DNA of 64,000 nt. Origin: Allobosea thiooxidans (GTDB lineage Bacteria; Pseudomonadota; Alphaproteobacteria; Rhizobiales; Beijerinckiaceae). Positions 29,546 to 45,244 of this stretch are shown piece after piece. Positions within the stretch are counted from its first letter, which is position 1. Every line of letters starts with the position of its first letter. Position numbers and translations under genes: made by a program. The stretch is taken from assembly GCF_900168195.1 (NCBI RefSeq), contig NZ_FUYX01000007.1, positions 1 through 64,000 on the forward strand. Reading direction: 5' to 3'. The notes beneath the pieces were generated by a model, which made no database searches, was not told the origin of the DNA, and was given only the letters and a program-made list of their open reading frames with translations.

Positions 29546-32500
29546 TCAAGCCACGGCGATCCGTCCACGCCATTCGCGCCCCGGCCCCACGGCGGCGCTG
29601 ATCTGGGCCAGCGACAGGCTGAGTTCCGCCTGCGTCGCGCCGAAATCGGCGAGTTCCACCGCCGCCGGATAGAGCCACGCCGGTGCATTCACGATTTCGG
29701 TACGGACCGGTACGCCGCCGGCGAGAAGGCGAATCTCGTATCGCTCGCTCTCCTCGCCGAGCGGCACCTCGGCCAGATCCCAGGAATCCCCGTCGATCCG
29801 GGTTCGCCGGATCCAGCTGAGGAGAATCCCGTCCCCGCCGCGCCGCGCCCGCGGCCGGACCGGCGAGAAGGGCAGCAGCGCATCCCCCCGCGGCGTAAGA
29901 GCGAGTTCCACCATGGTGGGGTCGCCGACATCGTGGCGGGCCGGGCCGATGCGGTAGCGGCGTTCCCGGCCGATATCGGCGAGATCGCTCGTCAAGGTCA
30001 CGGCCGATCCGTCGAGGACGACGATGCGGGCTCCGGCCGGCAGGTGACGGGAAGCCGCCGCCTCCGAGCCGCCGAGGCCGCGCACGAAGCCGGAGAGGCG
30101 GAAGCGCTGCGTGCCGACGAGTTCGGCCTGCGCGGCAGTCACGATCTCGACCTCGCCGTCCGCCCCGATCAGGGCCAGGGCGTTGGCGCCGGAGAGAGCT
30201 GCCTCGGGCGACACGGAGGAGAGCGCCCCGCCGCGCAGCCTGACCTCGAGCACGTTGCTCCGTTCGCTTCGCCAGAGCGGGCCGGGCGGAAACGCCGTCA
30301 GCGTTTCGCCGACGATCGACGGCGCCTCGACGAAGCCGTGACGATCGAACTGCCCGGTGCCATCCGCGCCCCAGATCGCCAGCGCCCCCGGCCAGGGCGA
30401 TGCGAAAGCGGCGAGCGAGAGCAGCGCGGGCGGCTGCGCCACGACGAACGGCAGGGAAAGCGGCACGACCAGAGGCCGCCCCGGGAGAGGCGGCGGCGTC
30501 CGCGGCGGGCGATCGCCCCCCTTGGCGCCGGCGCTGGAATAGATCGCCGGCTCGACCGCCCGCGCGCTGACCTGCCGGGTCGCGGCGTCGGCGATCCGCA
30601 CGATCCGGAACAGCCGGCGGTCGCCATCCACCGGCACGGAGACGACATCACCCGGCTCGAGATCGAGGCAGCGCGGCGAAAGTTCGCATTCGAGCGTCTC
30701 CCGCGCGGCCCAGGCCTCCTGCAGCCGCTGATCGGCCAGCCGCCTTCCCTCGGCCGCGCGGGTCACGATGGCGGTCTCGACGGCGACCTCCCGCCTTGCG
30801 GCGCCCGCCAGGCGGCGGGAGCGTGCGGCTGCGCGGCGATAATCGCTGTCGCTATCCCCGAAGCCGAGGCGCAGTTCCAGCGGCAGCTCGGTTTCCTGGC
30901 TGCGGCGCAGGGTGAACGGCTCCCCGTCGCGGCCCGGTACGAAATCGTCAGGCCCGAGCAGCCGCGCGACCTTGCCGCCCCGGGCCTCGAAACGCAGCCG
31001 CCCCGCGCTCATCACCGCATCGAAGCCGAAGGTCTGGGCGAGCGGTTCGAGCGCCTGGCGGGCCGACAACGGACGGTCTAGCACATAGCCGTCCACGAAG
31101 CCGTCGACGGCCATGCCGTCCGCAGGCGGCAGGCCGAAATCGGCGAGCAATCCGGCGACGAGGCAATCGATGGGCGTGCCCTCGAGGCGGCCGTTCAGCC
31201 AGTGCCCGGTCTCGAAGGCGGCGCCATCCGCCCAGATCCCGCCGAGATCCGGGAAGGCCGGGAACGGCCTCGCGTCCCAGTTCCAGACGACGATGCGCGC
31301 CGGATCGATCATCCGGATGCCGGTGACCGGATCGACCGGATTCCGCGCGGGGTCGAACCCGGCACGGGACGGGTCGAAGCCGGAGATGATCGCCGCCAGC
31401 CCGCGCGCCTGGACCAGATCGTCGCGCGCGCCGCTCGAGAACGGGGGCAGGCCGCCCTCGGCGGAACGGGGATCGGGGAAGACGTTGGGCGCATTGGCAC
31501 CCTTGTCGACGGCCGGCACGCCGATCTCGGTCAGCCAGATCGGCTTTCCGCCCGGCAGGAAGGGCGTCGCCGTCGTCTCCACTCCAGCGACGCGGCGAAC
31601 ATGCGGATGGCTCCACCAGCCGCGAAGATCCTTCGGCCGGAACAGCCAGGGCTTGCCGTAGGCGCCGTCCGTGATCGGCAGACGCGCCTGCGCGCTGCGG
31701 CCCGCCTCGTCGGCATAGTACCAATCATAGGCCTCGCCAGAGGTCAAGCGGCCGCGCAGATAGGCGATATCGGCGGGGCCGCGTGCGATGGCGGCATCGG
31801 CATGGTCACCTGAGTCGCGCCAATCCGAGAGCGGCGGATAGAAATCGATGCCGATCGCCCCGATCGCGGGCGAAGCCCAGAGCGGATCGAGCGGGAAATC
31901 GACCGTCTGCGCTGCGTCGCGAACATCGGCGCCGTATTCGGTCCAGTCGGCGGCATAGGTCAGCGTCGCAGCGGGCAGGATGGTGACGACATCCTGTGCG
32001 ATCGCCGCGAGCTGATCGGCCATCGGATAGCCGGCGGCGCCGCGCAGATGCGTGAGCTCGACCATCTCGGAGCCGATCACGAAGCCCTCCACGCCGCCGG
32101 CCGCCTGCGCCAGCATCGCGCAATGCATCACGAGGCGGCGATAGGACCATTCGTCCGGCTTGGCGCAGGCGACGGCGCCGCCGACGAGCGACATGTCGGC
32201 CGGGCCGACCGTGCCGGTGAAGGCTGCGATCTGCGCCGCGACGGCGGCCGTGCCCTCCGGGCTCCCCACCCGCCCCCGCGCCGGATCGCAGGTGATCCGG
32301 CCCCGCCAGGGGTAGCGCGGCTGGCCGACGCTTCCGGTCCAGGGATCGGGCAGGCCATTGTCCGGCGGGATGTCCATCATCAGGAAGGGGTAGAGGACGA
32401 CCTCGAGCCCGTAGTCGACGCGCAGCCGCCGGATCAGCGCGACGACGCTCTCGTCGGAAGGCGTGCCACCGAAGGCCGGGCGGCCGTCGATCTGGCTGAC

Positions 32501-33463
32501 GGGCCGCGCCGCGGAGCGCGTCAGCCCCGCGACGGACCAGTTGGCGCCGACCGTCGGCTTGTGCGGGATCTCGACGCGCGGCGCGACGCTGCAGGCGCCG
32601 GCCCGCAGGTCGTCGCCGAACCACGTCACGACCAGCGAGACGGTGCGCAGCCGGGGGCAGAGCGCGAAGAGATGGCCGAGCGCGGTGTCGACATCCGAAC
32701 CGCCATAGAGCTGGTGGCGCGTCAGGCTCTCGCTCACCCCGGGTTCGGGCTCGTGGCTGACGGGCCGCGTGTCGTAGACGAACTCGCCCGCACCGGGGAT
32801 CAGCGAGACCGCGCGGATCATGCCGCCCAGCCCGTCGACCGCCCGGACGACCTCGAAATCGAACTGCGGCACGCGGTTGCCGTATTCGGCAAGCGGAAAG
32901 CGCTCGAAGACGACATAGGCGAGGCCGCGATAGGCCGGGGCCTCGCCGGCTTCCTTCGCGGCGATGAGCGGGTCGGGTTCCTGCGTCTCACGGCCGTGAT
33001 GGACGCGCATCGTCACCGTGGCGGCATCGAGCTCGCGCCCGTCGACCCAAATGCGCCTGATGAAGGCGACCGGCCCCTCGCAGAGGCCGATCGCGAGATT
33101 GGCGTAGTAGCTGTAGGTCGATTCGTAGGTCTTCCGGGCGCGACCGCCCTTGCCGCCGCTCTTGCTGCGGGCGACCGAGACCGTAACCTCCTCCTCGAAG
33201 CGCGTCGCCCAGATCAGCTGGCCACCGAGCCGCGCACGACCGTAGAGGCGCGGGATCGGCGCGCCCTCGGTGGCGGCGAGCCCGTTGACCTCCTTCAGGC
33301 GCGGCCCGTCGACGATCTTGTTGCCGCCGGCGCCACCGAGCCAGGCCTGGTCGATCGTCGCACCGGCCAATCCGCCCAGCGCCTGTCCGATCGCGCCGCC
33401 GGCCGGGCCGCCGAGCGCGGTGCCCAGCGCCGCGCCCGCGACCTGGAGAAGAAGCGTCGCCAT
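29546..33463 (-). CDS. GTA gp15 homologue: baseplate megatron/host-specificity protein
   Basis: A 1,305-residue protein, the length of Rhodobacter GTA gp15. The N-terminus (MATLLLQVAGAALGTALGG) is Gly/Ala-rich; the middle holds the GTA TIM-barrel-like domain (GIDFYPPLSDWRDSGDHADA, KPIWLTEIGVPAVDKGANAP, about residues 400-780), then the phage tail-protein domain and C-terminal baseplate repeats. It builds the tail tip and fibre base of the particle. ATG 33463 overlaps the gp14 stop by one base. It is the last gene of the GTA cluster. Confidence 0.93.
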   Translation of the reverse strand: MATLLLQVAGAALGTALGGPAGGAIGQALGGLAGATIDQAWLGGAGGNKIVDGPRLKEVNGLAATEGAPIPRLYGRARLGGQLIWATRFEEEVTVSVARSKSGGKGGRARKTYESTYSYYANLAIGLCEGPVAFIRRIWVDGRELDAATVTMRVHHGRETQEPDPLIAAKEAGEAPAYRGLAYVVFERFPLAEYGNRVPQFDFEVVRAVDGLGGMIRAVSLIPGAGEFVYDTRPVSHEPEPGVSESLTRHQLYGGSDVDTALGHLFALCPRLRTVSLVVTWFGDDLRAGACSVAPRVEIPHKPTVGANWSVAGLTRSAARPVSQIDGRPAFGGTPSDESVVALIRRLRVDYGLEVVLYPFLMMDIPPDNGLPDPWTGSVGQPRYPWRGRITCDPARGRVGSPEGTAAVAAQIAAFTGTVGPADMSLVGGAVACAKPDEWSYRRLVMHCAMLAQAAGGVEGFVIGSEMVELTHLRGAAGYPMADQLAAIAQDVVTILPAATLTYAADWTEYGADVRDAAQTVDFPLDPLWASPAIGAIGIDFYPPLSDWRDSGDHADAAIARGPADIAYLRGRLTSGEAYDWYYADEAGRSAQARLPITDGAYGKPWLFRPKDLRGWWSHPHVRRVAGVETTATPFLPGGKPIWLTEIGVPAVDKGANAPNVFPDPRSAEGGLPPFSSGARDDLVQARGLAAIISGFDPSRAGFDPARNPVDPVTGIRMIDPARIVVWNWDARPFPAFPDLGGIWADGAAFETGHWLNGRLEGTPIDCLVAGLLADFGLPPADGMAVDGFVDGYVLDRPLSARQALEPLAQTFGFDAVMSAGRLRFEARGGKVARLLGPDDFVPGRDGEPFTLRRSQETELPLELRLGFGDSDSDYRRAAARSRRLAGAARREVAVETAIVTRAAEGRRLADQRLQEAWAARETLECELSPRCLDLEPGDVVSVPVDGDRRLFRIVRIADAATRQVSARAVEPAIYSSAGAKGGDRPPRTPPPLPGRPLVVPLSLPFVVAQPPALLSLAAFASPWPGALAIWGADGTGQFDRHGFVEAPSIVGETLTAFPPGPLWRSERSNVLEVRLRGGALSSVSPEAALSGANALALIGADGEVEIVTAAQAELVGTQRFRLSGFVRGLGGSEAAASRHLPAGARIVVLDGSAVTLTSDLADIGRERRYRIGPARHDVGDPTMVELALTPRGDALLPFSPVRPRARRGGDGILLSWIRRTRIDGDSWDLAEVPLGEESERYEIRLLAGGVPVRTEIVNAPAWLYPAAVELADFGATQAELSLSLAQISAAVGPGREWRGRIAVA

Positions 33464-33894
33464 CAGTCGGTCACTCCGGGAAAGGAAAAGGCATGGCTGA
33501 GATGACGCCGCCACCAGGGCGTGAAGGCGACCTCGGCGACGGCGGCGCCGTCATGGGCATGGATGATGCGATCCGGCTCGCTCAGGACGGCGCAGTGCTT
33601 GGCCGGAAGGTGCTCGCGCCAGCGGAAGAGCAGCACGTCGCCGGGCCTTTCCGCTCCGAGGGCGATCGGCACGAGATGGCGCAGCGCGGCAGCCGCCAGC
33701 GTTTCCTGCCGCAGGCTTTCGGCCCAGTGAGGGCTATAGGGAGGCGGCGGCTCCGGCTCCTCGCCCAGAAGGTCGCGCCAGACGCCGCGGACGAGGCCGA
33801 GGCAGTCGCAGCCGACGCCGCGCAGCGAGGCCTGGTGGTGATAGGGTGTGCCGAGCCAGTGCCGCGTCGCCTCGACGATCGCGCCGCGCCTCAT
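33463..33894 (-). CDS. GTA gp14 homologue: NlpC/P60 cell-wall peptidase
   Basis: A 143-residue tail-tip peptidase. The catalytic cysteine is Cys31 in GVGCDCLGLVRG and the histidine is His100 (AKHCAVL), the NlpC/P60 pair; a second cysteine (Cys29) stands two residues before. In Rhodobacter GTA the equivalent is a baseplate peptidase thought to open peptidoglycan for DNA entry. Its start overlaps the gp13 stop (33891-33894). Confidence 0.92.
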   Translation of the reverse strand: MRRGAIVEATRHWLGTPYHHQASLRGVGCDCLGLVRGVWRDLLGEEPEPPPPYSPHWAESLRQETLAAAALRHLVPIALGAERPGDVLLFRWREHLPAKHCAVLSEPDRIIHAHDGAAVAEVAFTPWWRRHLSHAFSFPGVTD

Positions 33895-34772
33895 CGGAAC
33901 AGGCTCCCGCCATCGAGCGCTCCGTCGCCGGGACGGACGCCGCCGATGATGAAGTCGGCGGTTGGCATATGCGGGAAGCCGCGGAAGTTGACGCCGTTGC
34001 CGAACTTGGCCCGGCAGGTGGCGAAGCTCTTGTCGCAGCCCGGCGTGACGCTGAAGCCGTCGCCCGGCCGGATCGTCGCGGCCGGAACCTGCCAGAGCTG
34101 AAAGGCGGCGCGACCGCCTTCGATGCCGTGGCGTTTCACCTCGGTGGCGAAGCCGGCATTGCCGCCGCCGGTGAAGACGAGCCGGCCACCGGTGAAATGA
34201 CCGTCCGGAAAGGAGGATAGCCCCGCGGCGGAGAGGCCGAGGCGCCCGTCGCTCGTCTCGACATGCGACGCGGCGGGCACGAGCGCGACGCCGCAGTGCG
34301 CATCGCCCAGATCGGCGGAGCAGGAGCGCAGGTAGAGCCGGCCACGCTCCTCGTCGAAGGCCTTGGCGAAGCTGCGCACCTCGGCCGTGAAGCCGATCTC
34401 GCCGCGCCTCACCTCGCCGACGAAGCCCTCCTCCAGCAACAGCCGCTGCTCGGGCGCGGCCCAGTTGACCAGCCAGATGCGCAGGCGCGCGTCGTCATAG
34501 AGGCCGCCCGCCAGATCCGCCTCGTTCAGGCCGGCCGCGGCGAAGGCTCCGGCGACCTCGCCGCCGCCGATGGCGAAGCCGAGCTCGGCCGTCGTCTCGG
34601 CCGCCTCCAGCCCGGTCGCCGCCTGGAAGGCGACGCTGTCGAAGGAAAGCGGCCGGTCATGGTCGGTGAAGCCGAGCACCAGGCCGTCGCGGCGCGTCAG
34701 GCTCCAGCAGCGGCACAATGTGGTCGCGCCGCCTTCGAGATGGACGGCGAGCGCCGCGGGTATGTCACGCAT
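33891..34772 (-). CDS. GTA gp13 homologue: baseplate hub (DUF2163)
   Basis: A 293-residue DUF2163/BR0599-type protein. The N-terminal half is the hub fold (LSLTRRDGLVLGFTDHDRPL); the C-terminal half has cysteines 151, 160, 246 and 253 in CSADLGDAHC and GCDKSFATC, followed by GNGVNFRGFPHMP. The Rhodobacter GTA hub has been reported to carry an iron-sulfur cluster, and these four cysteines fit such a site. The start ATG 34772 overlaps gp12 by 8 bases. Confidence 0.92.
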   Translation of the reverse strand: MRDIPAALAVHLEGGATTLCRCWSLTRRDGLVLGFTDHDRPLSFDSVAFQAATGLEAAETTAELGFAIGGGEVAGAFAAAGLNEADLAGGLYDDARLRIWLVNWAAPEQRLLLEEGFVGEVRRGEIGFTAEVRSFAKAFDEERGRLYLRSCSADLGDAHCGVALVPAASHVETSDGRLGLSAAGLSSFPDGHFTGGRLVFTGGGNAGFATEVKRHGIEGGRAAFQLWQVPAATIRPGDGFSVTPGCDKSFATCRAKFGNGVNFRGFPHMPTADFIIGGVRPGDGALDGGSLFR

Positions 34773-35421
34773 GGTGCCGGCCTCGGGGAACGATCTCGAT
34801 GACGGGAATGCGCGGGATCTCGCCGGCCTCGAAGGCGGAGAGGTCGACCTCGATGGCGTCGATGTCGAAGCGCACGGGAACGTCGAAGCAGAAGCCGGCG
34901 CTGACCATCGCGCCGGGCGGCGGAATCGCACCCGGCGTGAAGTCGATACGCCCCGTCGTCATATCGCAGGCGAAGCTCGTGGCGGCCTGCTCGACGCCAT
35001 CGAGCGCGATCCGGACGGTGCCGTCGCAGGGCTTGGTGATCGTGCGGCGATAGGCGGACGGGCCGGCGCCATAAGTCTTGCAAAGCTGGAAGACTGCCGT
35101 GGTGCCGTCCCCGGTCCCGATCACCTGATCGGTGGCAGCCGGCTCCTGCGACGGAAGGCAGCTCTTCCAGTCCAGCCGATCGTGCCAGCGAAAGCCGTAG
35201 AGCCGGCCGCAGCGCTCCTCGAAGAAGCCCACCACGGCCGCAAGGGCGTCGAGGCTGCGCACGCCGAGCCCGGCGTCGTAGCACCGCCGCGAATGGGCCC
35301 AGCGGCTGTTGCGGACCTCACGGCCCGAGGCGAGCGCGACGATCTGCGTGAGACGCTCCGGCCCGCCGCGCGCGCCGCGAGCGATATCGGTGGGAAAACG
35401 GACCTCGTGGAAATCGCTCAT
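34765..35421 (-). CDS. GTA gp12 homologue: distal tail protein (DUF2460)
   Basis: A 218-residue DUF2460 protein (MSDFHEVRFPTDIARGARGG, RWAHSRRCYDAGLGVRSLD, FRWHDRLDWKSC). In Rhodobacter GTA this forms the distal tail ring between tail tube and hub. It lies 12 bases downstream of the tape-measure gene. Confidence 0.93.
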   Translation of the reverse strand: MSDFHEVRFPTDIARGARGGPERLTQIVALASGREVRNSRWAHSRRCYDAGLGVRSLDALAAVVGFFEERCGRLYGFRWHDRLDWKSCLPSQEPAATDQVIGTGDGTTAVFQLCKTYGAGPSAYRRTITKPCDGTVRIALDGVEQAATSFACDMTTGRIDFTPGAIPPPGAMVSAGFCFDVPVRFDIDAIEVDLSAFEAGEIPRIPVIEIVPRGRHHA

Positions 35422-35433
35422 GGCCCGTCCCGC

Positions 35434-36027
35434 TCAGAGCGCCCGGCTGCCGCGCGCGACGGCGCGGGCGATCGCCGCCGAGACCTGCGCTTCCGAACGA
35501 CGGAAGCTCTCGGCATCGGGCGTCGAGACCTGGACGACGACGCTGAGCGGCCGCGACGAGCCGCCGGCGGCGCGAACACCGAGACGCCCGTCCGGGCCGC
35601 GCGACAGCGGCATGATAGCCTCGGCGCCACGCTCTCCCATCAGGCCGAGCCCGCGCCCCGTGGGGAAATAGGAGGGCGAGGCGACGATGCCGCCCTCGGC
35701 GAAGGGCGCGACCGGAACGCTGCCGCCGAAGGAGCCGAAGCCGCCGCCGCCGAAGAGACCGGCAATGCTCTTCGCACCGGCACCGAGCAGATCCGACAAC
35801 CCGGTCTGCAGCGGTTTCAGCGCGTTCTTGAGCAGGCCGTCGGTCAGCGAGCGGCCGAGGCTGCGCAGCACGTCCTCGAAGCGCTTGCCCTCGACCGCTC
35901 CGCGCGTGAACGCGTTTACGATCGACTTGCCAAAGCTTTCCGAGGATCGGCTCAAAGATTGAGTCAGCGAATCCATCGCTCGCAGATCGGACAGGCGGGC
36001 GGAATCGACGATATCGTCGCTGGCCAT
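35434..36027 (-). CDS. GTA gp11 homologue: short tail tape-measure protein
   Basis: A 197-residue protein, like the small tape-measure protein of GTAs. It has an amphipathic N-terminal part, the KSIVNAFTRGAVEGKRFEDV segment, a Gly-rich hydrophobic stretch (about 78-105) and the phage tape-measure C-terminal motif FAEGGIVASPSYFPTGRGLG followed by GERGAEAIMPL. Length fits a tail of a few tens of nanometres. ATG 36027 follows an AGAGG site. Confidence 0.9.
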   Translation of the reverse strand: MASDDIVDSARLSDLRAMDSLTQSLSRSSESFGKSIVNAFTRGAVEGKRFEDVLRSLGRSLTDGLLKNALKPLQTGLSDLLGAGAKSIAGLFGGGGFGSFGGSVPVAPFAEGGIVASPSYFPTGRGLGLMGERGAEAIMPLSRGPDGRLGVRAAGGSSRPLSVVVQVSTPDAESFRRSEAQVSAAIARAVARGSRAL

Positions 36028-36064: not shown

Positions 36065-36226
36065 TCAGGCATCCGGATAGGCGGCCATCAAGGCCGCCAG
36101 CGCGGCGCGATCGGTCGTCGTGCCCCCGGCGCCGCGATGCGCCCGCAAGGCCGCGGCGATCTCGCGCGGGGTCGCCGCCCAGAATTGCTCGGGCGGCCAG
36201 CCCAGCCGGCCGAGCCCGAAGGCCAT
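36065..36226 (-). CDS. GTA gp10.1-like small tail assembly chaperone
   Basis: A 53-residue frame (MAFGLGRLGWPPEQFWAATP, REIAAALRAH, ending MAAYPDA) matching in type the small rcc01693-like tail assembly protein that follows gp10 in GTA clusters. Homologous frames usually start a little earlier; the in-frame sequence before ATG 36226 (APAAFPWDEV) also looks coding, but has no ATG, GTG or TTG up to an upstream stop. Either the ATG is right or a rare start (CTG at 36256-36258) or coupling to the gp10 stop is used. Confidence 0.7.
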   Translation of the reverse strand: MAFGLGRLGWPPEQFWAATPREIAAALRAHRGAGGTTTDRAALAALMAAYPDA

Positions 36227-36258
36227 GACCTCGTCCCAGGGAAAGGCCGCCGGAGCCC

Positions 36259-36603
36259 TCAGGCCTCCGGCGGCTGCGGAGGGCGGGCCTCCCCGTCATC
36301 GCCGAAGGTCGCCTCGAGCAGAGCGATCGCCGCCTTGATCGCGCCGTTCAGCCCTCCGTCGAAAGAGAGGCCCGCCACGTCCTCGTCGCGGATCGCCCTG
36401 CCGGCCCCGCGCAGGCCGGCCGCGAGGATGCGGATGATGTCGCCGGCCGAAAGACGGCCGGTGACGAAGCGCTCGCCCAGAGCCGGCAGGCTGTCGACGG
36501 CGAAGGCCTGCTCGAGCTCGGCGAGCGCGCCGAGCGTGAGGCGCATCGGCAGCGCCTCGCCCTCGACCAGGAGCGCGGCCTCGCCGCGGTGACGGTTCGC
36601 CAT
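36259..36603 (-). CDS. GTA gp10 homologue: tail assembly chaperone
   Basis: A 114-residue GTA-family protein (MANRHRGEAALLVEGEALPM, LTLGALAELEQAFAVDSLPA, GRLSAGDIIRILAAGLRG). The start at 36603 has an AGGGAG site at proper distance; ATG 36609 is alternative. It follows the major tail protein and precedes the gp10.1-like frame, the usual order. Confidence 0.9.
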   Translation of the reverse strand: MANRHRGEAALLVEGEALPMRLTLGALAELEQAFAVDSLPALGERFVTGRLSAGDIIRILAAGLRGAGRAIRDEDVAGLSFDGGLNGAIKAAIALLEATFGDDGEARPPQPPEA

Positions 36604-36613
36604 GGCCATCTCC

Positions 36614-37791: not shown

Positions 37792-38361
37792 TCAGAGCCT
37801 CCCGCGGCGAAACGGGGCGACCAGCGCGGCGATCGCGCCGGGAAGCCCGCGCGCATCGCGGCTGGCGACATCGCCGCGCTCCTCGAACCAGCGGGCGGCA
37901 AGCCGCAGCACCGCCTGGCGCAAGGGCGCGGGGACGGCGGCGGCATTCGCCCCATAGCCTGCGACAACATCGATCTCGATCGCGCCGTGGCTGCGCCCGA
38001 TCTCCGGAACCTCCCCGATGACGCGAATGAGGGGCGGATCGGTGTTCCGCTCCAGCGACAGCGCCGCCTCGGCGACCGGCTGCGGCGCGCCGAGCAGGTC
38101 GTAGACCCGGGCCGCCTCGATCCGCGCTATCGGCGACAGCGGCAGGCGGATCTCGTCACGGGATGGCCAGCGGTCGAGGACGATCCGCCAGGGCTGCTCG
38201 ATCAGGCAGCGGCCCGCCGCGGCCTCGATCATCAGCCGCGCCGCCGTGATCAGCGTGGCAAGCAGATCGTCCTCATCGGTCTGGTCGAGGCGCAGGAACT
38301 GCCGGGCTTCGGCGAGCGTGACCGGCTCGGTCGCCGGCGGGGCCAAGGCAAGGGGGATCAT
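37792..38361 (-). CDS. GTA gp6 homologue: head-tail connector
   Basis: A 189-residue connector/adaptor (PVTLAEARQFLRLDQTDEDD, AARLMIEAAAGRCLIEQPWR, LRQAVLRLAARWFEERGD). It is the first gene of the tail-side block and is separated from the capsid gene by two opposite-strand protease genes. Its ATG has a GGAG site. Its own promoter, if any, must lie between 38362 and 38446, where I see only a weak TTGAAC-like -35. Confidence 0.9.
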   Translation of the reverse strand: MIPLALAPPATEPVTLAEARQFLRLDQTDEDDLLATLITAARLMIEAAAGRCLIEQPWRIVLDRWPSRDEIRLPLSPIARIEAARVYDLLGAPQPVAEAALSLERNTDPPLIRVIGEVPEIGRSHGAIEIDVVAGYGANAAAVPAPLRQAVLRLAARWFEERGDVASRDARGLPGAIAALVAPFRRGRL

Positions 38362-38420
38362 GGGCGCTCCGGTTCGAAGGATCGTTTGCGAGGTTCAATT
38401 GCGCGGCGCGGCGCGCTATC

Positions 38421-38444
38421 AGCGTTCCCTCGGAGAGGAACGCT
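38421..38444 (+). promoter_or_regulatory. Hairpin covering the ribosome site of the first protease gene
   Basis: Inverted repeat AGCGTTCC / GGAACGCT with an 8-base loop ends two bases before the ATG at 38447. The likely Shine-Dalgarno GGAGAGG (38432-38438) lies in the loop and 3' arm, so folding would hide it. A translational control role is inference. Confidence 0.45.
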
Positions 38445-38446
38445 CG

Positions 38447-39220
38447 ATGCGCATCGCCACCTGGATCATCGCCGTAGGGCTCGGCTTCACCGTCTGCGGA
38501 TTCGCTGCCTTGCCCGCGCAAGCCGTCGTCGGCGGACACGAGGACGGCCCGGCCGCGGGCTCGACCCTGATGGTCCTGAACGCGCGCGGCGGCGTCTGCA
38601 CCGGGATCGTGCTCGCGCCCCGCGTCGTCCTGACAGCAGCGCATTGCGCCGGCGGCGGCGCCGAGATGCGCGTCCACTGGCGCGAGGGCGGCGAGCCCGT
38701 GCTGGTGCCACCAGCCGCGGTCGAGCTGCATCCGGAATTCGACGCCGGAGCGATCCAGAGCCGCCGCCGCTCCGTCGACCTGGCGCTCGTCCGCCTGCCC
38801 ACCCCGTTGCCGAGCCGCTTCACGGCGGCCGAGCTCGTGGACGGGCCCCTGCCGCGCGTGGGCAGCTCGATCACGCTCGCCGGCTACGGCGTGGCCCGGG
38901 AAGGCGAGGCCCGCAGCACGGGGACCTACCGTTCCGCCGCGCTGACGGCCGTAGAACCCTATGGCCCGGGGCGGATCCTGCTCTGGGCGGCAGATCCGGC
39001 CGGCGCGGGCAAGCGCCCCGGGGCCAGCGCCTGCCAGGGCGATTCGGGCGGCCCGATGGTCTCGGAGAGCGGCATCGTCGCGGTGACGAGCTGGTCGACC
39101 GGCCCGAAGGGGCGCAACTGCGGCCTGCTCAGCCAGGGCGTCCTGGTCGCGCCCCAACGGTCATGGATCGATGCGACGCTTTCGCGCTGGGGCGAGAGCG
39201 CGCGTTGGACCGGCCGTTGA
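38447..39220 (+). CDS. Secreted S1-family serine protease (copy 1)
   Basis: A 257-residue chymotrypsin-fold protease with a signal peptide ending ALPAQA26, directly followed by VVGG, the activated N-terminus of S1 proteases. The catalytic triad is His66 (LTAAHC), Asp111 (SVDLALVRL) and Ser200 (CQGDSGGP). The residue equivalent to chymotrypsin 189 is Ser194, so trypsin-like Lys/Arg specificity is not expected. It lies on the plus strand inside the minus-strand GTA cluster, next to a paralogue. Start ATG 38447 follows GGAGAGG. Confidence 0.93.
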   Translation: MRIATWIIAVGLGFTVCGFAALPAQAVVGGHEDGPAAGSTLMVLNARGGVCTGIVLAPRVVLTAAHCAGGGAEMRVHWREGGEPVLVPPAAVELHPEFDAGAIQSRRRSVDLALVRLPTPLPSRFTAAELVDGPLPRVGSSITLAGYGVAREGEARSTGTYRSAALTAVEPYGPGRILLWAADPAGAGKRPGASACQGDSGGPMVSESGIVAVTSWSTGPKGRNCGLLSQGVLVAPQRSWIDATLSRWGESARWTGR

Positions 39221-39280
39221 ATTGGGCTGGACTGTGCAGCGCCACATCCTAGATTGATCTGCCCGTCACCGGTTCGTCTC

Positions 39281-40126
39281 ATGATCCCGCGCTCGTCATT
39301 CGCCTTCCTGTTCTCCGCAGCCCTGCTTCTGGCGGCACAGCCGGCCGCGGCCGTCGTCGGCGGCGTCGATTCGCGTGACCGACAGGGCGCCCGCGCCTGG
39401 ACGGTGCGGGTGGAAACCAGCCGTGGGGAGCTCTGCTCGGGCGCGGTGATCGCGCCCGAGATCGTCTTGACGGCGGCGCATTGCCTCATGGGCGGCGGCT
39501 CGATCAGCGTCGTCAGCCTCGACTCCCGTTTCAGGGCGAGGCGTCAGATGGTCGTCGCCGTCCTGCCGCATCCAAGCTTCGTGCCCGGCACGACGCCGCG
39601 CACCCAGCCGGGCACGGACCTGGCCCTGCTGCGCCTGGCCGAGCCGCTGCCGGGCGACATCGAGCCGCTGTCGGTCGGCGGCAATCTCTGGCAGGGCGAG
39701 ACCGTCACCATGGCCGGCTTCGGCCTCTCGGCCGAAAACAACAAGCGCACGGCCCGCCGCCTGCGCGAGACGCAGCTGGTCAATGCCGGCAACTACACGA
39801 CCCAGAACACGGTGAAGGTCGCGGTCGACGTCGCGGCACGGGGCGAGACCCCCGGCGCCGGCGCCTGCCGCGGCGATTCCGGCGGCCCGGTGCTGCGCGG
39901 GAACACACGCTCGCGCGACCTCGTCGGCATCGTGAGCTGGTCGAGCGGCCCCTTGCGCACGCAGGCCCGGCGCATCTGCGGCGGCTTCACCGCGATCACG
40001 CCGATCGGAGAATACCGCCGCTGGATCGCCGAGGGCAGCGCGCGGCTTCTCGGCCTCGGAGGCGAGGTGCCGCAGGAGGAGCCGGTTCAGCCGCGCGCCG
40101 CGTTCAGCTGGTGGTTCTCGCGCTGA
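39281..40126 (+). CDS. Secreted S1-family serine protease (copy 2)
   Basis: A 281-residue paralogue of the upstream protease. The signal peptide ends AQPAAA24, followed directly by VVGG. Triad: His67 (LTAAHC), Asp113 (GTDLALLRL), Ser200 (CRGDSGGP). The position-189 equivalent is Gly194, again not Asp, so small or hydrophobic P1 residues are more likely. It ends 4 bases from the convergent capsid gene stop at 40131. The tandem pair probably arose by duplication; role in GTA biology is not known. Confidence 0.93.
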   Translation: MIPRSSFAFLFSAALLLAAQPAAAVVGGVDSRDRQGARAWTVRVETSRGELCSGAVIAPEIVLTAAHCLMGGGSISVVSLDSRFRARRQMVVAVLPHPSFVPGTTPRTQPGTDLALLRLAEPLPGDIEPLSVGGNLWQGETVTMAGFGLSAENNKRTARRLRETQLVNAGNYTTQNTVKVAVDVAARGETPGAGACRGDSGGPVLRGNTRSRDLVGIVSWSSGPLRTQARRICGGFTAITPIGEYRRWIAEGSARLLGLGGEVPQEEPVQPRAAFSWWFSR

Positions 40127-40130
40127 GCGA

Positions 40131-41378
40131 TCAGGCCGCGAACTTGAGCCCCTTGATCGCCGCGAAGTCCTGGACGCCGCCACCGACCCGCTTGGTCGTG
40201 TAGAACAGCACATAGGGCTTGGCGGAGTACGGGTCGCGCAGGATCCGGACGCCGGCCCGGTCGACCACGAGATAACCGCGCCGGAAGTCGCCGAAGGCGA
40301 TCGAGACTGCATTCGCGGCGATGTTGGGCATGTCCTCCGCCTCGACCAGCGGGAAACCGAGCAGCGTTGCCGGCGCGCCGGCCGAGGCCGGCGGCTGCCA
40401 GAGGTAGTTCCCGTTGGCGTCCTTGAACTTGCGGATCGCGCCCTGCGTCTTGCGGTTCATCACGAAGGAGGCGTTCTGACGGTAGCCGGCCTTCAGCGCA
40501 TAGACCAGGTCGACCAGCACATCGGCGGGGTTCGAGGCCGGGAAGGCGCCGGCGACGCCGGTGTTCAGCACGCCGATATTGCCCCAGCTCCAGCTCGCAT
40601 CGGCCACCGCCGGATAGGCCAGGAAGCCCTTGGGCTTGTCGACGCCGTCGCCATTGACGAAGGCGGCGCCCTCCTGCTCGGCGAAGGCGCTCTCGACCTC
40701 CTCCGCGATCCACTGGTCGATATTGACGATGGCGTCGTCGAGCAGGGTCTGCGTCGCGGCCGGCATGGCGTAGAGTTCCATGGCCGGGAAGGAGAGCTCG
40801 GCCAGCGTCGGCGAAGCTGTCTGCGGGCGCGCCGCGGTCTCCGCCACCCAGCCGGCGGCCGGGCCGGTGGTGGAGAACGCCTTCCGGTAGGTGCCGGAGG
40901 AGATGGTGCGCACCGTCGCCAGGGAGCGGATCGGTGAGACGGCGGCCAGGCGGCGCAGGATCTCGCCCTCGACGGTGGAGGGCGCGAGATAGCCGCCATC
41001 CGGACCGGAGCCGGCCGAAAGCGCCTTGGCTTCCAGCCGCTTCAGCCCGCCGGCCTCGCCGGTGCGGACATAGGCCGCGAAGGCGGCCTTGTGCTCCGCG
41101 ACGAACGGATCCCGCGGCGCGCCCTCCTGCCCGAGCGCCGGACGGCCGCGCTCCAGTGCCAGCCGGTCGATGCGGCGCATCGTGTCGTCGAGCGCGGCAT
41201 CCATCCGGGCGAGCTTCTCCTCGGTCAGCGGATCGGCGCCATCGCGGGCTTCGATCTCCGCGAGGCGCTCGTCATTGGCGGCGCGATAGTTCTCCAGCGT
41301 GTAGCGCAGATCCTCGAAGGCGAGCGCGAGATCGGCGCCGGCCGCCTTGGTCTCGGGCGCGGAAAGGGATTGGGTCAT
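40131..41378 (-). CDS. GTA gp5 homologue: HK97-type major capsid protein
   Basis: A 415-residue HK97-fold capsid protein. The first about 105 residues are a helical delta region (coiled-coil character) expected to be removed by the gp4 protease; the mature part starts near LSAGSGPDGGYLAPSTVEGE. Typical capsid segments follow (FSTTGPAAGWVAETAARP, AFVNGDGVDKPKGFLAYP, NASFVMNRKTQGAIRKFKD, DFRRGYLVVDRAGVRILRD). Confidence 0.95.
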   Translation of the reverse strand: MTQSLSAPETKAAGADLALAFEDLRYTLENYRAANDERLAEIEARDGADPLTEEKLARMDAALDDTMRRIDRLALERGRPALGQEGAPRDPFVAEHKAAFAAYVRTGEAGGLKRLEAKALSAGSGPDGGYLAPSTVEGEILRRLAAVSPIRSLATVRTISSGTYRKAFSTTGPAAGWVAETAARPQTASPTLAELSFPAMELYAMPAATQTLLDDAIVNIDQWIAEEVESAFAEQEGAAFVNGDGVDKPKGFLAYPAVADASWSWGNIGVLNTGVAGAFPASNPADVLVDLVYALKAGYRQNASFVMNRKTQGAIRKFKDANGNYLWQPPASAGAPATLLGFPLVEAEDMPNIAANAVSIAFGDFRRGYLVVDRAGVRILRDPYSAKPYVLFYTTKRVGGGVQDFAAIKGLKFAA

Positions 41379-41401
41379 GGCTTCTCCTCGTGGTGGTGGG
41401 T

Positions 41402-41905
41402 TCAGGCGAAGGCGACGGGCTGGCAGGCCTTGACCGCGGCGATCCGCGCCTGCGGCAGCATCGGGAAGGTGACGATCGAGATCTCCCAGAGATCGACGCG
41501 CTCGAGCCGGCGCAGCCCGCTGCGCGGCTCGGTGCGGGCCTTTTCGGGGCGAAAGCCGATCGAAAGGCCGTCGATCGCGCCGTCGAGCATCAGGGCATGG
41601 ATCTCGCGAGCGCGGGCGACGGCGAGCGAGAGGCGCCCGCGCACGAACAGGCCGCGGCTGTCCTCGACCAGGCTGAGCCAGCGGCCGAGCGGCTCGGCCG
41701 GATCATGCTGCCAGAGCAGCCTGACGCCGGCTGCCCCCCGGCGAAGCAGGCTGTCGCGGAAGGCGCCCGGCTCGACCACGTCCTTGCCGAGATCGGGAAT
41801 GCGGAACAGGCTGGCATAGCCCGCGAAGCTGCCATCCGGCGCGATGCGGGACGGCTGCAGCGGCAAGAGCTTGGACTCGAGCGGCAGGCGGGAGAGCGCA
41901 TTCAT
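41402..41905 (-). CDS. GTA gp4 homologue: HK97-family prohead protease
   Basis: A 167-residue prohead maturation protease (FAGYASLFRIPDLGKDVVEP, RLLWQHDPAEPLGRWLSLVE, IDGLSIGFRPEK). The His in LLWQHD and Ser in GLSIGF are the expected catalytic residues of the family. ATG 41905 overlaps the preceding small gene (ATGA) and it lies 23 bases before the capsid gene. Confidence 0.93.
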   Translation of the reverse strand: MNALSRLPLESKLLPLQPSRIAPDGSFAGYASLFRIPDLGKDVVEPGAFRDSLLRRGAAGVRLLWQHDPAEPLGRWLSLVEDSRGLFVRGRLSLAVARAREIHALMLDGAIDGLSIGFRPEKARTEPRSGLRRLERVDLWEISIVTFPMLPQARIAAVKACQPVAFA

Positions 41906-42081
41906 CGACCGCCCTCGCCGTTCCTGCCGGACTGCGACTGCCCGCGCTCCAGCCGTGCCAGATTGCCGACGAACCGGCTGAAGATGTCCGCCGTCACGCC
42001 CTCTGGCCGGCCCCGCGCGGGTTGCACCCGCCCGGCGGCCGGCCGTCTCGGCGGAGGTTTCGCCTCGCGGCTGCCCTTCAT
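41902..42081 (-). CDS. Small basic GTA-cluster protein (gp3.5 position)
   Basis: A 59-residue frame (MKGSREAKPPPRRPAAGRVQ, PARGRPEGVTADIFSRFVGN, LARLERGQSQSGRNGEGGR). It begins with a basic, Pro/Arg-rich stretch and has one likely helix (ADIFSRFVGNLARLER). Both ends overlap neighbours by ATGA junctions, which supports real translation. The position matches the small gene between portal and protease in Rhodobacter GTA; function unknown. Confidence 0.72.
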   Translation of the reverse strand: MKGSREAKPPPRRPAAGRVQPARGRPEGVTADIFSRFVGNLARLERGQSQSGRNGEGGR

Positions 42082-42278
42082 GATTGATCCCCCTCATGGC
42101 GTGCGTTGAAGCGGTTGAGCTCGCGGACGAACTCGTCGAAGCGGCGGTTCGCCGCCGCGAGTTCCCGCAGGACGAGCCAGGCCAGGCCGGAGGCGCTGGC
42201 GGCCCAGAGCAGCAGGCCGAGATGGCCGACATCGGCCCGGCCGATGAAGGCCGCGACGATCTGGTCGAGCAGGTTCAT
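42078..42278 (-). CDS. Small single-helix membrane protein in the GTA cluster
   Basis: A 66-residue protein (MNLLDQIVAAFIGRADVGHL, GLLLWAASASGLAWLVLREL, AAANRRFDEFVRELNRFN) with one transmembrane helix at about 18-40 and a charged C-terminal helix. ATGA overlaps at both ends link it to portal (upstream) and the 59-residue gene. Similar small membrane proteins are found in rhizobial GTA clusters as far as I recall; function unknown. Confidence 0.78.
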   Translation of the reverse strand: MNLLDQIVAAFIGRADVGHLGLLLWAASASGLAWLVLRELAAANRRFDEFVRELNRFNARHEGDQS

Positions 42279-43456
42279 GGTGGCTCCCTTCCCGGGGCAC
42301 GCCGGCCGTAGCCGACCGCCTCGCGCTTCTCGTCGTCGTCCAGGAAACTCGCCGCCCCGAGGCGGCGCCAAAGCGATTCCCGCTCGTCGGCCAGGGCCTC
42401 GACGGCATCGAGATCGGGCTCGAGCATGAGCTCGCTGTCGAAGGCGGGGCCGAGCCATTGCGCCAGCGACTGCGCCGTGCGCTTCACCAGCGGGATCACG
42501 GTCTGGCGCCAGAGCGCGCGGTTCGCCTCGGCGAAATTCGCGTGGGTATTGTCGCCGGCCAGGCCGAGCAGCAGCGGCGGCACGCCGAAGGCGAGCGCGA
42601 TCTCACGCGCCGCGACACCCTTGGCCGCGACGAAATCGAGCTCGGCCGGCGTCAAGGACAGGGGTTTCCAGTCGAGGCCGCCTTCGAGCAGCAGGGGGCG
42701 GCCGGCATTGCGGGCACCCTGGAACGAATCCTCCAGCTCCTGCTTCAGCCGCTCGAACTGGGCCTCGGTCAGCGCCGCGCCTTCCGGCCCGTCATAGACC
42801 AGCGCGCCGGAGGGTCGCGCGGCATTGTCGAGCAGCGCCTTGTGCCAGTTGCTCGCTGCATTATGGATGTCGAGCGAGACGGCGGCCGCCTCGATCGGGG
42901 ACAGGCCGTAATGGTCGTCGACCGGGTGGAACAGCGTCAGATGCAGGATCGGCGGCTGCCCGCCCTCGCCTTGCCGGAAGCGCACCGTGTCGCCGCCGAC
43001 GGTGTAGTCATAGGCCTCGGACCAGCCGTCGCGGCCCGGGACCACGCGCATCCGGTCGGGCCTGAGCGCATAGAGCTCGCGCGGCTCGCGGCCAGTGCTC
43101 ACCGCCTCGACATAGGCGTTGCCGGCGACCAGCAGGTGGCCGAACAGCATCTCGCGGAAGGCGATGCCGCCCTGGCGCGGATTGGGCCGGTCGACCAAAG
43201 CGAGCGCCGGATGCTCCGGCACCTCGCGGTTTCCGACCTTGGCGACCAGCGGCGTCTGGGCGGCAGCCTCGGCGATCAGGCGCACGCAGCGATGCACAAC
43301 CGGGTTGCGCTCATAACCCTCCCGCGCCAGGGCGACATAGTCCCGCGGCGTCCAGACCGCGCGCCCAGCCTCGTGCAGGGCGATGAGCGGCCCGACGCGC
43401 GAGCGCTTCTGGTCCGGCGCGGCACGACCGCGCAGGTTGCGAAGGAAATCGAACAT
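42275..43456 (-). CDS. GTA gp3 homologue: portal protein
   Basis: A 393-residue HK97-type portal (MFDFLRNLRGRAAPDQKRSR, NPVVHRCVRLIAEAAAQTPL, GHLLVAGNAYVEAV, FGVPPLLLGLAGDNTHANFA). It forms the dodecameric DNA entry ring. ATG 43456 was chosen by family start; the frame runs open upstream through a dispersed repeat. It is separated from the terminase stop by 146 bases that contain that repeat. Confidence 0.94.
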   Translation of the reverse strand: MFDFLRNLRGRAAPDQKRSRVGPLIALHEAGRAVWTPRDYVALAREGYERNPVVHRCVRLIAEAAAQTPLVAKVGNREVPEHPALALVDRPNPRQGGIAFREMLFGHLLVAGNAYVEAVSTGREPRELYALRPDRMRVVPGRDGWSEAYDYTVGGDTVRFRQGEGGQPPILHLTLFHPVDDHYGLSPIEAAAVSLDIHNAASNWHKALLDNAARPSGALVYDGPEGAALTEAQFERLKQELEDSFQGARNAGRPLLLEGGLDWKPLSLTPAELDFVAAKGVAAREIALAFGVPPLLLGLAGDNTHANFAEANRALWRQTVIPLVKRTAQSLAQWLGPAFDSELMLEPDLDAVEALADERESLWRRLGAASFLDDDEKREAVGYGRRAPGREPP

Positions 43457-43496
43457 GGATCTCTCGCTGTTGGAGCGTGAAACAGGGCTCGGCGGG

Positions 43497-43596
43497 CGCG
43501 ATTGCGAGCGCGGCAAAGCAATCCAGGAGGGCCGGGTGAAACGGCTAGCCCGGTCCTCCTGGATTGCTTCGTCGCTGGCGCTCCTCGCAATGACGA
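43497..43596. repeat. Dispersed palindromic repeat, family A, inside the GTA cluster
   Basis: Arms GATTGCGAGCG...AAGCAATCCAGGAGG and CCTCCTGGATTGCTT...CTCGCAATGAC with variable centre, the same family as at 10839, 48948 and 56750. It lies between terminase and portal, so the operon transcript would carry a roughly 90-base hairpin at this point. Confidence 0.85.
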
Positions 43597-43602
43597 GGCG
43601 GG

Positions 43603-44949
43603 TTACATCCCCCTCACCCGCGGCCGGGCCTTCGGTGCCAGCATCAGGTGGGTCAGGGCCCAGACGAGCGCGTCGAGTCGGTCGGGCGAGCGACCATTGT
43701 CGAGGCCGGACGGGCCGAAGGAACACATCTCGTCCTCCAGCGCCGGAAAGGCGCCGGCATGACGCACCCGCCCCTGGGCATAGAGGGCCGCTACCGGCTC
43801 GGCGCGGAGATATTTGCCGCGCGTCGCCCTGACGGAGACGACGGGGACGCCGGCATCGACCTCGCGGATGATGCTCTCGACCATCTCGCCGCCCTGGTTG
43901 ATCTCGACCACCAGCGCATCCGCCTCGTGGCGCCGATAGAGCGCCACTGCCCGTTCCGCCCATTCATGCGGCCTGGCGCCGGCAAGCGTCGCATCCTCGA
44001 GGACATGGCCGATGCCCCCGGCATCGATGCCCGCGACCACCAGTCCGCAGCGATCGGCCCGCCGGGACGAGGAAGCCGGCGGATCGACCGCGACGGCGAT
44101 ACGCGCCAACGCCGGCGGCGCGCCTTCCCGCGCGTCCTCGATCTGCGTGCGCGTCCAGAGCGCGTCGGGGCTTTCCTCGACGATCTCGCCGTCGAGCTCC
44201 TGCCGCCCGAGGCGCGTCCCGCCATAGGTTTCCGTGACGGTGCGGACGAATTCCGCCGCCAGATTGTAACAGTTGTCGCGCGTCCTCGCCCGGCTCACCG
44301 CGACATGCGGCTCGACGAGAAGGCGTTTCACCAGCGGCACCGGCCGCGGCGTCGTGGTGACGACCTGCCGCGGATGATCGCCGAGGCGCAGGCCGAATTG
44401 CAGCATGTCCCAGCACTCCTGAAGGTTCGGCCATTTCGCCAGTTCATCCGACCAGGCCGCGCCGAATTGCGGGCCGCGTAGCGCCTCCGGATCCTCGGCT
44501 GAGAAGACCTGAGCGATCGCGCCGGTCGGCCATTCCAGGCGACGCAGCGACGGCATCCAGGACGGGCGCTCCCAGCGGGTATGGATCGCGAGCAGCCCGG
44601 AGATGCCCTCGATCATCACGTCGCGGACCTGGCCTTGCGTCTCGCCGACCAAGGCGATCCGTCCCGTCGGCCTGTCGGCGAAGGGCGGATGGCCAAGCGC
44701 CATGCCCTTGACCCATTCGGCGCCGGTGCGTGTCTTGCCCGCGCCGCGCCCGCCGAGGACGAGCCAGATCGGCTTCGGCGGTTCGAGCGGCTGCTGATCC
44801 CCGCGCGACCAGAGCCGCCAGAATTCCTGCAGGACCTCCCCATCTTCGGCTCCGAGCTCAGGCAGCATCTCCGGGATCAGCCTGGCCCAGCTCGCGATCG
44901 GCAAGCGCCTCAAGACGTCGAGCAAGCTCCTGACGGAGCTGTGCGACAT
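43603..44949 (-). CDS. GTA gp2 homologue: terminase large subunit
   Basis: A 448-residue packaging motor. The ATPase domain has Walker A GGRGAGKTRTGAEW (near residue 68) and a Walker B/coupling region (QFGAAWSDELAKW); the nuclease domain has Asp in AVAVDPPASS and ADALVVEINQGGEMV. In GTAs this subunit packages headfuls of host DNA. ATG 44949 overlaps the gp1-like gene by 92 bases; ATG 44868 would leave an 11-base overlap but shorten the N-terminus. Confidence 0.94.
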   Translation of the reverse strand: MSHSSVRSLLDVLRRLPIASWARLIPEMLPELGAEDGEVLQEFWRLWSRGDQQPLEPPKPIWLVLGGRGAGKTRTGAEWVKGMALGHPPFADRPTGRIALVGETQGQVRDVMIEGISGLLAIHTRWERPSWMPSLRRLEWPTGAIAQVFSAEDPEALRGPQFGAAWSDELAKWPNLQECWDMLQFGLRLGDHPRQVVTTTPRPVPLVKRLLVEPHVAVSRARTRDNCYNLAAEFVRTVTETYGGTRLGRQELDGEIVEESPDALWTRTQIEDAREGAPPALARIAVAVDPPASSSRRADRCGLVVAGIDAGGIGHVLEDATLAGARPHEWAERAVALYRRHEADALVVEINQGGEMVESIIREVDAGVPVVSVRATRGKYLRAEPVAALYAQGRVRHAGAFPALEDEMCSFGPSGLDNGRSPDRLDALVWALTHLMLAPKARPRVRGM

Positions 44950-45244
44950 GTCGCAGACCGTCAGCGGCAGAGAACTCATCCGTCGGCTTGTCCTTCTTCG
45001 CGGCCTGCGGCTCCTCGATCGCGGCGAGCTCGCGCACCGTGCGGGCGAGCGTCGCCAGCGCCTTGGCATCGGTCTCGCTCGCGGCCGCGCCTTGCGGCAG
45101 ATCGGCGAGATGCTCCTCATGAGCGTCGAGCTGGCGTTTGGCGGCGCGCCAGAGCTGGCCCACCACGGCCCGCCGGGAGACCGGAGCGCGCTTTCGCTTC
45201 TCCACCGGCGGCAGTGGCGCCGCCGTGCCATCCTCCTCGGCCAT
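44858..45244 (-). CDS. GTA gp1-like protein: small terminase
   Basis: A 128-residue mostly helical protein (MAEEDGTAAPLPPVEKRKRA, SRRAVVGQLWRAAKRQLDAH, LATLARTVRELAAIEEPQAA). It has the position and size of gp1, shown in Rhodobacter to be a small terminase. ATG 45244 follows GGGGAGA; an in-frame ATG at 45316 would add 24 residues but spans the leader hairpin. It is the first gene of the GTA cluster. Confidence 0.82.
   Translation of the reverse strand: MAEEDGTAAPLPPVEKRKRAPVSRRAVVGQLWRAAKRQLDAHEEHLADLPQGAAASETDAKALATLARTVRELAAIEEPQAAKKDKPTDEFSAADGLRHVAQLRQELARRLEALADRELGQADPGDAA

Follow-up and report, generated by a model that had tools for sequence, protein, structure and literature searches.

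Gene content of the locus

The window analysed here is a stretch of 64,000 nucleotides at the start of contig C12 (NZ_FUYX01000007.1) of the 5.37 Mb genome of Allobosea thiooxidans, genus Bosea. It carries on its minus strand, at 29546-45316 (gp15 to gp1), a complete head-tail cluster of the type of the Rhodobacter capsulatus gene transfer agent (GTA; the R. capsulatus agent is RcGTA), known here from its genes alone. Between the major capsid gene gp5 and the connector gene gp6 lie two serine protease genes on the plus strand, here called prA and prB, which we argue below are probably passengers of the cluster with a job of their own in the host. An earlier note on this DNA had read homologues of gp1 to gp15 in order on the minus strand, with two plus-strand S1 proteases parting gp5 from gp6, and both readings held: the gene order is borne out by Pfam and NCBIfam models, which back most cluster genes, and by tblastn conservation (gp10.1 being an open frame only), and the insertion measures 1,769 bp with both of its genes intact. 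The features are as follows.

38447..39220, plus strand: prA, S1A serine protease, 257 amino acids, apparent signal peptide (Pfam; catalytic triad)
39281..40126, plus strand: prB, S1A serine protease, 281 amino acids, apparent signal peptide, C-terminal SWWFSR tail (Pfam; catalytic triad; AlphaFold2 (AF2) model with fold match)
38362..38446, no strand: gap between the divergent genes gp6 and prA, holding a conserved promoter-like stretch ahead of prA (33-row alignment)
44858..45316, minus strand: gp1, small terminase position (tblastn conservation in the genus; no NCBIfam match)
43603..45270, minus strand: gp2, large terminase; true start within the open reading frame (ORF) (Pfam)
42275..43963, minus strand: gp3, portal; true start within the ORF (Pfam)
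42078..42458, minus strand: small gene between gp3 and gp4, conserved part from about residue 61 (tblastn conservation)
41402..42232, minus strand: gp4, prohead protease (Peptidase_S78); true start within the ORF (Pfam; NCBIfam)
40131..41378, minus strand: gp5, HK97-type major capsid protein (Pfam Phage_capsid, E 7e-98; NCBIfam)
37792..38361, minus strand: gp6, head-tail connector (Pfam; TIGR02215, 172 bits)
37450..37788, minus strand: gp7, head completion (Pfam; NCBIfam)
37043..37471, minus strand: gp8, tail completion; start approximate (Pfam, scanned as ORF 37043-37651)
36614..37024, minus strand: gp9, tail tube (Pfam; NCBIfam)
36259..36609, minus strand: gp10 (Pfam Phage_TAC_11, GTA-gp10)
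36068..36280, minus strand: unscanned open frame, ends approximate, which we take to be a candidate gp10.1
35434..36027, minus strand: gp11, tape measure (no Pfam match; NCBIfam RcGTA_tape, E 7e-47, 160 bits, below the cut-off of 220)
34765..35421, minus strand: gp12, distal tail, Rcc01695 family (Pfam DUF2460; TIGR02217)
33891..34931, minus strand: gp13, baseplate hub; true start probably within the ORF (Pfam phiJL001 Gp84 / BR0599; TIGR02218)
33463..33894, minus strand: gp14, NlpC/P60 peptidase (Pfam; TIGR02219)
29546..33514, minus strand: gp15, GTA megatron / baseplate multidomain protein (Pfam GTA_TIM, Phage-tail_3 and Rcc01698_C; GTA-specific NCBIfam model GTA_megatron, 1628 bits, cut-off 800)
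27068..29119, minus strand: flanking two-component system, kinase D3 (27068-28441) and regulator D2 (28451-29119), which stays by the proteases after GTA loss
45405..45986, minus strand: flanking LOG-family gene U1, which borders the locus on its other side in Bosea (Pfam; NCBIfam; tblastn)

Each of gp6, gp7, gp8, gp9 and gp10 was identified by Pfam; only conservation in relatives identifies gp1 and the small gene that follows gp3. Scanning of the immediate neighbours of the cluster identified the two-component system, the LOG protein and an M20 peptidase. The D2 regulator is PmrA/PhoP-like and highly conserved (87-99% among genomes of the genus and about 80% between families), and the D2 and D3 pair, which follows gp15, in several families stays next to the proteases once the GTA has gone.

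Properties of the two proteases

From their likely ATG starts at 38447 and 39281, prA and prB encode proteins about 35% identical to each other, which match Pfam Trypsin (E 6e-23 and 7e-30, respectively) and no other Pfam domain. Trypsin domain, fold and His-Asp-Ser triad place them in S1A, the structure having been modelled for prB only; the AF2 model has a fold-level match to S1A structures at about 25% identity and adds only the fold. The catalytic His, Asp and Ser are intact in 91/91 prA rows and 91/92 prB rows of a redundant set comprising the loci of the genus and the named loci L088-L142 and L146, with the f20, f36 and f50 loci left out. The lone prB row without a full triad is the frameshifted one of G009 (L048), where the frameshift seems to split the gene; it is intact in the close relative G031, and a sequencing error is possible.

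Trypsin specificity goes with an aspartate at residue 189, which was found in none of these rows, the residue being Gly in 80, Ser in 10 and Ala in 1 of the prA rows (n = 91) and Gly in all 92 prB rows. As residue 189 is Gly or Ser and never Asp, an elastase- or chymotrypsin-like specificity is predicted to be more likely for both proteases than a trypsin-like one. Both proteins have, as read by eye, a hydrophobic leader that ends in A-x-A right before VVGG.

In most genomes of the genus prB ends, after a variable linker, in a near-invariant S-W-W-F-x-R tail (40106-40126 in the window), which is disordered in the AF2 model (residues 262-281) and could be a docking or localisation signal. The tail is absent from prB of G026, G030 and G033, and Methylobacterium copies end differently, for example in W-M-A-R-P. 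PADLOC matches of prB to LmuA and Avs1b were set aside as weak and partial, covering shared protease sequence (prA gave none), as were NCBIfam matches to FusH and MarP, which were below cut-off and covered the same kind of sequence.

Distribution of the insertion

In all 89 fetched loci having a protease, gp5 and gp6, the protease lies between gp5 and gp6 on the opposite strand (three fetched sets of 30, 47 and 12 loci, with some genomes counted twice and gp5-gp6 gaps of up to 9.7 kb). This arrangement is seen in Bosea, Methylobacterium, Methylorubrum, Microvirga, Enterovirga and others, with a single copy in some relatives; it was the named loci, drawn from the best 80 of at least 416 confirmed places, that added Methylorubrum, Microvirga, Enterovirga and a metagenome-assembled genome (MAG) of the Salinarimonadaceae, as well as one-copy loci in Rhodopseudomonas and Bradyrhizobium. 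Within Bosea a protease was found in 36 of 37 genomes, with single-contig assemblies among the carriers; G029 was considered as a loss of both GTA and proteases, and rejected as uninformative because its contig starts inside gp6. Within Methylobacterium, where G254 nests among named species in two trees, 109 of 111 genomes have a protease (108 of them two copies) and 88 of 111 have gp5. Comparison of the gp5-gp6 junction in related Hyphomicrobiales, which the earlier note had proposed, thus found the protease pair widespread and intact and not a degraded peculiarity of one strain.

On a wider scale, 385 genomes drawn evenly from the class yielded five matches at E 1e-25, the window genome included, from two families of the order. 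Among 397 genomes sampled from the order, the protease family was matched in 95 at E 1e-10, spread over many families (the weaker matches being other trypsin-like proteins), and gp5 in 259 at E 1e-80, so that at least 164 of the 397 (259 less 95) have gp5 without the protease family. Five protease-free loci with gp5 and gp6, fetched since searches had shown no protease in them, were inspected; four are from other families and one (G274) is from the family of the window, and the two genes lie 83-177 bp apart in G048, G040, G046 and G274 (83 bp in G274) and 507 bp apart in G051. Rhodopseudomonas palustris 2.1.18 (L149) has a gp2-like match immediately past the protease, and almost 10 kb separate its gp5 from gp6, which suggests that this GTA cluster is rearranged or interrupted.

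Ancestry of the protease pair

In a maximum-likelihood tree of 95 sequences, the prA and prB copies from Bosea, Methylobacterium and Microvirga fall into two parallel series, each of which follows the taxa, and the duplication is therefore older than the split of these three genera. Other genera of family f1 have a single copy at this junction, and these copies group on the prA side; an earlier duplication with loss of prB would also fit them. The f20 pairs and f36 singles branch deeper, in a tree with several deep branches that are long or weak and a program warning of long branches meeting; the f20 pair may have a separate origin.

Protease loci without a working GTA

In six Bosea genomes (G001, G008, G020 and G032, which form one clade of the protease tree, G013 and G030) the proteases are flanked by the LOG gene and the two-component system and a working GTA is missing, and searches of these whole genomes found gp5 in none of the six and gp15 in G030 alone, as fragments. 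Relics of the cluster persist around the pair. G030 retains a gp1-like piece, the C-terminal part of gp2, the first third of gp6 and the C-terminal part of gp15, and a MAG locus (L099) retains the C-terminal part of gp5, a piece of gp15 and the N-terminal part of gp6. Between prA and the D2 regulator, the C-terminus of gp15 was matched by two segments in G013 (E 2e-7; one segment extends into prA and is maybe a chance match) and by two in G020 (E 3e-6), with weaker matches in place in G032 (0.02), G008 (0.01) and G001 (0.12); the search was run at lax settings that gave many chance matches, mostly to gp13, and only matches lying where expected and on the expected strand were retained. The first codons of gp6 persist upstream of prA in G013, G020 and G032, and not in G001 and G008.

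GTA-bearing sisters are at hand for G013 (G036) and G030 (G033). Parsimony gives three changes of GTA state in the genus both on a tree of flanking genes (23 genomes kept after loci with fewer than two of the four flanking genes were dropped, with G020 placed poorly) and on the protease tree (34 genomes), and a minimum of five changes over 67 pair-bearing loci, with up to three further lineages beyond these. The direction of change is not taken from these counts alone, as it is the relics that show loss.

Further cases of proteases without a GTA are a Methylobacterium clade (seven named loci with G254, G541 and G542), G243 and G330 of family f20, G086 and G157 of family f50, and Bradyrhizobium. 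The proteases adjoin the two-component system that otherwise follows gp15 in 8 of the 10 such Methylobacterium loci and in the f20 and f50 cases. Genome-wide searches gave no gp5 or gp15 match in G086, G157, G123 and G234 of f50, where we infer GTA loss; G186 of f50, which has no GTA genes beside its proteases, was not counted as GTA-less because gp5 is matched elsewhere in its genome (E 4e-112). Four Bradyrhizobium genomes have no gp15, a single weak gp5 match (27%) in one of them, and one protease kept. Of the 23 Methylobacterium genomes without gp5, 21 keep a protease (the locus was inspected in G254, G541 and G542, and some of the others, such as G450 and G522, may reflect contig breaks). 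In these genera the proteases outlast the GTA, as the Methylobacterium counts show (109 against 88 of 111), and the pair marks former GTA loci and supplies natural comparisons in which the GTA is off and the protease on.

Selection after GTA loss

Ratios of non-synonymous to synonymous substitution (dN/dS) were estimated pairwise by the Nei-Gojobori method with no model test, from pairs that share branches, so that the pair counts below are not independent. Within the GTA-less Bosea clade, dN/dS is 0.06-0.12 for prA and 0.13-0.20 for prB (6 pairs), compared to 0.05-0.17 and 0.01-0.30 in five GTA-bearing pairs of similar divergence; medians for GTA-bearing pairs are 0.25 and 0.27 (358 pairs). 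The sister pairs G013/G036 and G030/G033 gave 0.10 and 0.09, and 0.05 and 0.05, for prA and prB respectively. In Methylobacterium, restricted to pairs with dS of 0.1 to 0.6, GTA-less medians are 0.29 for prA (24 pairs) and 0.21 for prB (28 pairs) versus 0.34 (115 pairs) and 0.28 (181 pairs) in GTA-bearing genomes. The GTA-less f20 pair gave 0.07 and 0.06, and Bradyrhizobium 0.12 (55 pairs from 11 loci, with GTA absence checked genome-wide in three genomes and for gp5 alone in a fourth). By these values purifying selection continues after GTA loss, with no clear relaxation.

Junction layout and transcription

The genes prB and gp5 converge, with their stops at 40126 and 40131 and 4 bp between them, and prA and gp6 diverge from starts at 38447 and 38361 with 85 bp between them. 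The protease pair is opposite in strand to the structural genes and may form a transcription unit of its own, with a conserved upstream stretch that lacks a consensus promoter. This stretch reads GTT, 17 nt and GCGCTAT in the window; both blocks are at least 90% conserved in an alignment of 33 rows from the genus (G026, G030 and G033 left out, the row of G009 misplaced), and the stretch is also kept in all five GTA-less genomes aligned, which indicates that it belongs to prA rather than to gp6.

The earlier note had held that transcription of the tail genes must either cross the proteases or start anew within 38362-38446. The dilemma is real, but its second branch finds no support: the gap stretch is common to genomes without a GTA, and an independent gp6 promoter is unsupported on this ground and for want of a match to a sigma-70 consensus or terminator, though an unusual promoter is possible. 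This poses the regulatory question of how RNA polymerase passes 1.8 kb of oppositely transcribed genes on its way from head to tail. In Caulobacter, GafZ is reported to let RNA polymerase pass terminators inside the GTA cluster (PMC13236601).

Origin and role of the protease pair

We consider it likely that prA and prB are host genes of a moron-like kind, which form an ancient passenger unit in the late cluster of the GTA with a job independent of it. This follows from the occurrence of GTA clusters without the proteases, together with proteases that stay intact and constrained after GTA loss in several lineages: they are not needed by their carrier and are kept as it decays, as a moron-like gene would be. 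Of the roles that the earlier note had offered, that of passengers is the one these data favour.

On this account, a gene for a secreted S1 protease would have inserted, in opposite orientation, between gp5 and gp6 of an ancestral Hyphomicrobiales GTA, and would have been duplicated no later than in the common ancestor of Bosea, Methylobacterium and Microvirga. The products may be exported by the Sec route, and cleavage by signal peptidase at A-x-A|VVGG would expose a chymotrypsin-type N-terminus, so that the enzymes could be active without a separate propeptide. Their substrate would be found in the envelope or extracellularly and have no relation to GTA particles. The pair would be transcribed from its own promoter in the 85-bp gap, and RNA polymerase coming from the gp1 side would read through the antisense proteases to reach the tail genes, perhaps with GafZ-like antitermination; silencing of the proteases by antisense transcription in GTA-producing cells may be a by-product.

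Several observations weigh against this interpretation. Linkage to the GTA is absolute in the loci inspected, although exit from a conserved cluster would be unlikely anyway, and a GTA-type gp5 is always accompanied by a protease (88/88 in Methylobacterium, 30/30 in the genus of the window), which is what one would expect of a functional link as well. Neither gp5 nor the junction pair was found in G463 and G514 of Methylobacterium or G220 and G315 of f20 (G514 being 70% and G315 85% complete). The seven named GTA-less Methylobacterium carry a gp15-like gene elsewhere, and one of them a 40% gp5-like gene; G254 likewise has two gp15 matches. Such genes were considered as a retained GTA and, in the one case fetched, that reading was rejected: Methylobacterium frigidaeris (G432:C16, L194), which has no GTA at its protease locus, has elsewhere a separate gp11-gp15-like tail module of 31-60% identity. 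Across the branch of GTA loss in the Bosea clade, dN/dS is 0.28-0.39 for prA and 0.21-0.35 for prB (8 comparisons), against the medians of 0.25 and 0.27 in the 358 GTA-bearing pairs, and a mild relaxation around that loss is possible; the pairwise, non-independent nature of all the dN/dS estimates counts here too. Consensus scans of 37700-40400 found neither a sigma-70 promoter nor a terminator, the promoter and the leader peptides having been read by eye, and a host function would be argued from retention alone.

An alternative that would account for both linkage and retention after GTA loss is that the proteases act on the recipient side, as cell-surface enzymes that allow or block uptake of GTA DNA, so that non-producers, still meeting the particles of their neighbours, would keep them. 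The proteins look exported, to the eye, and non-producers that still receive are discussed as cheaters in the literature (PMC10883770). Such a role in entry, which the earlier note had raised beside release, is compatible with the losses because a non-producer can still be a recipient, yet it sits poorly with deep retention, as the four Bradyrhizobium genomes are near GTA-free and keep one protease, for which the particles would have to come from other lineages, and with the lack of these proteases in most GTA-bearing genomes of the order; we regard it as unlikely.

A role in production or release, with the proteases as factors of maturation or exit comparable to the trypsin-like peptidases of Caulobacter LypABC, appears improbable. 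It would account for the absolute linkage in GTA-bearing loci, and GTA-driven lysis in Caulobacter is reported to need the peptidase activities of LypA and LypC (PMC13236601). Cells having no GTA nevertheless retain the proteases under constraint, which leaves the release role proposed in the earlier note unsupported, and GTAs exist without them; their orientation places them antisense to the late transcript, and LypA and LypC have several domains each and their genes lie about 2.4 Mb away from the GTA, whereas prA and prB are single-domain proteins with an apparent signal peptide.

We give similarly little credence to a scheme in which the proteases are the recipient's half, or gatekeeper, of GTA exchange and the antisense layout silences them in the few producing cells. 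If true, they would be surface-trimming enzymes kept by non-producing receivers, and producing and receiving would be mutually exclusive states wired by gene orientation alone.

It is very doubtful that the pair is there as cargo protecting the cluster, a useful gene in the middle of the GTA that makes single large deletions costly and so slows GTA loss. In G030 and L099 remnants do lie on both sides of intact proteases, indicating separate deletions to the left and right, but the GTA has been lost repeatedly anyway, and the idea describes an effect rather than a function and is compatible with the passenger interpretation. A recent neutral insertion or assembly artefact in one strain, of which the only trace found is the split prB of G009, is ruled out by the comparative data (36/37 genomes of the genus and 109/111 of Methylobacterium, single-contig assemblies and the near-complete conservation of the triads).

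As we read the field, a GTA cluster is commonly regarded as a self-contained unit, and its loss as erosion and no more. Here an unrelated gene pair has been inside a GTA cluster since before several genera split, and has repeatedly survived it.

Interruptions of gp5

Two Bosea genomes have gp5 split at the same position, by an insert of about 59 kb in one (G003:C43:15291-74729; L209, L210, L042) and of about 23 kb in the other (G017:C13:8440-31281; L211, L056). Measured against the intact gp5 of G014, both right halves start at base 960 and the left half ends at 962 in G003 and about 962 in G017, the G003 halves overlapping by 2 bp. Within about 100 bp of one junction in each lies an open frame of 659 or 696 codons with a serine recombinase domain. 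The picture is that of a large element with a serine integrase for which the major capsid gene of the GTA appears to serve as attachment site, and its insertion there would turn off the GTA. In the Methylobacterium genomes G500 (L212) and G515 (L213/L214), gp5 is interrupted near query residue 335, near the G003/G017 site though identity of the site is not established, and among the matches listed at these junctions there was no tyrosine or serine recombinase.

Comparison with known systems

Literature searches, whose coverage took in few subscription papers, found no report of S1 proteases in a GTA head-tail cluster. In structural gene content, gene order and placement on a single strand the cluster of the window agrees with RcGTA and its alphaproteobacterial homologues; unlike RcGTA, in which gp5 and gp6 are adjacent, it is broken between these genes by a divergent protease pair. 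As S1A enzymes, prA and prB share fold and triad with the trypsins of S. erythraea (5dk1) and Fusarium oxysporum (1try), and differ from S1A trypsins in having Gly or Ser, not Asp, at residue 189.

Prophage morons are extra units in reverse orientation within a phage structural cluster, with their own promoter and a host function. The protease pair resembles them as a reverse-orientation unit in a structural cluster, one that may have its own promoter and a function for the host, and differs from them in that its carrier is a GTA, in the conservation of the insertion across several genera and families, and in that prA and prB outlive their carrier.

The likeness to Caulobacter LypABC is that of trypsin-like serine peptidases tied to GTA biology. 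LypABC is described as a CARD-NLR-like system controlling GTA release, with LypA and LypC carrying further domains (ATPase; endonuclease) and lying about 2.4 Mb from the GTA (PMC13236601). By contrast prA and prB have no CARD-like, ATPase or endonuclease domains, their only Pfam domains being those of the trypsin family, and they are therefore not of the LypABC type.

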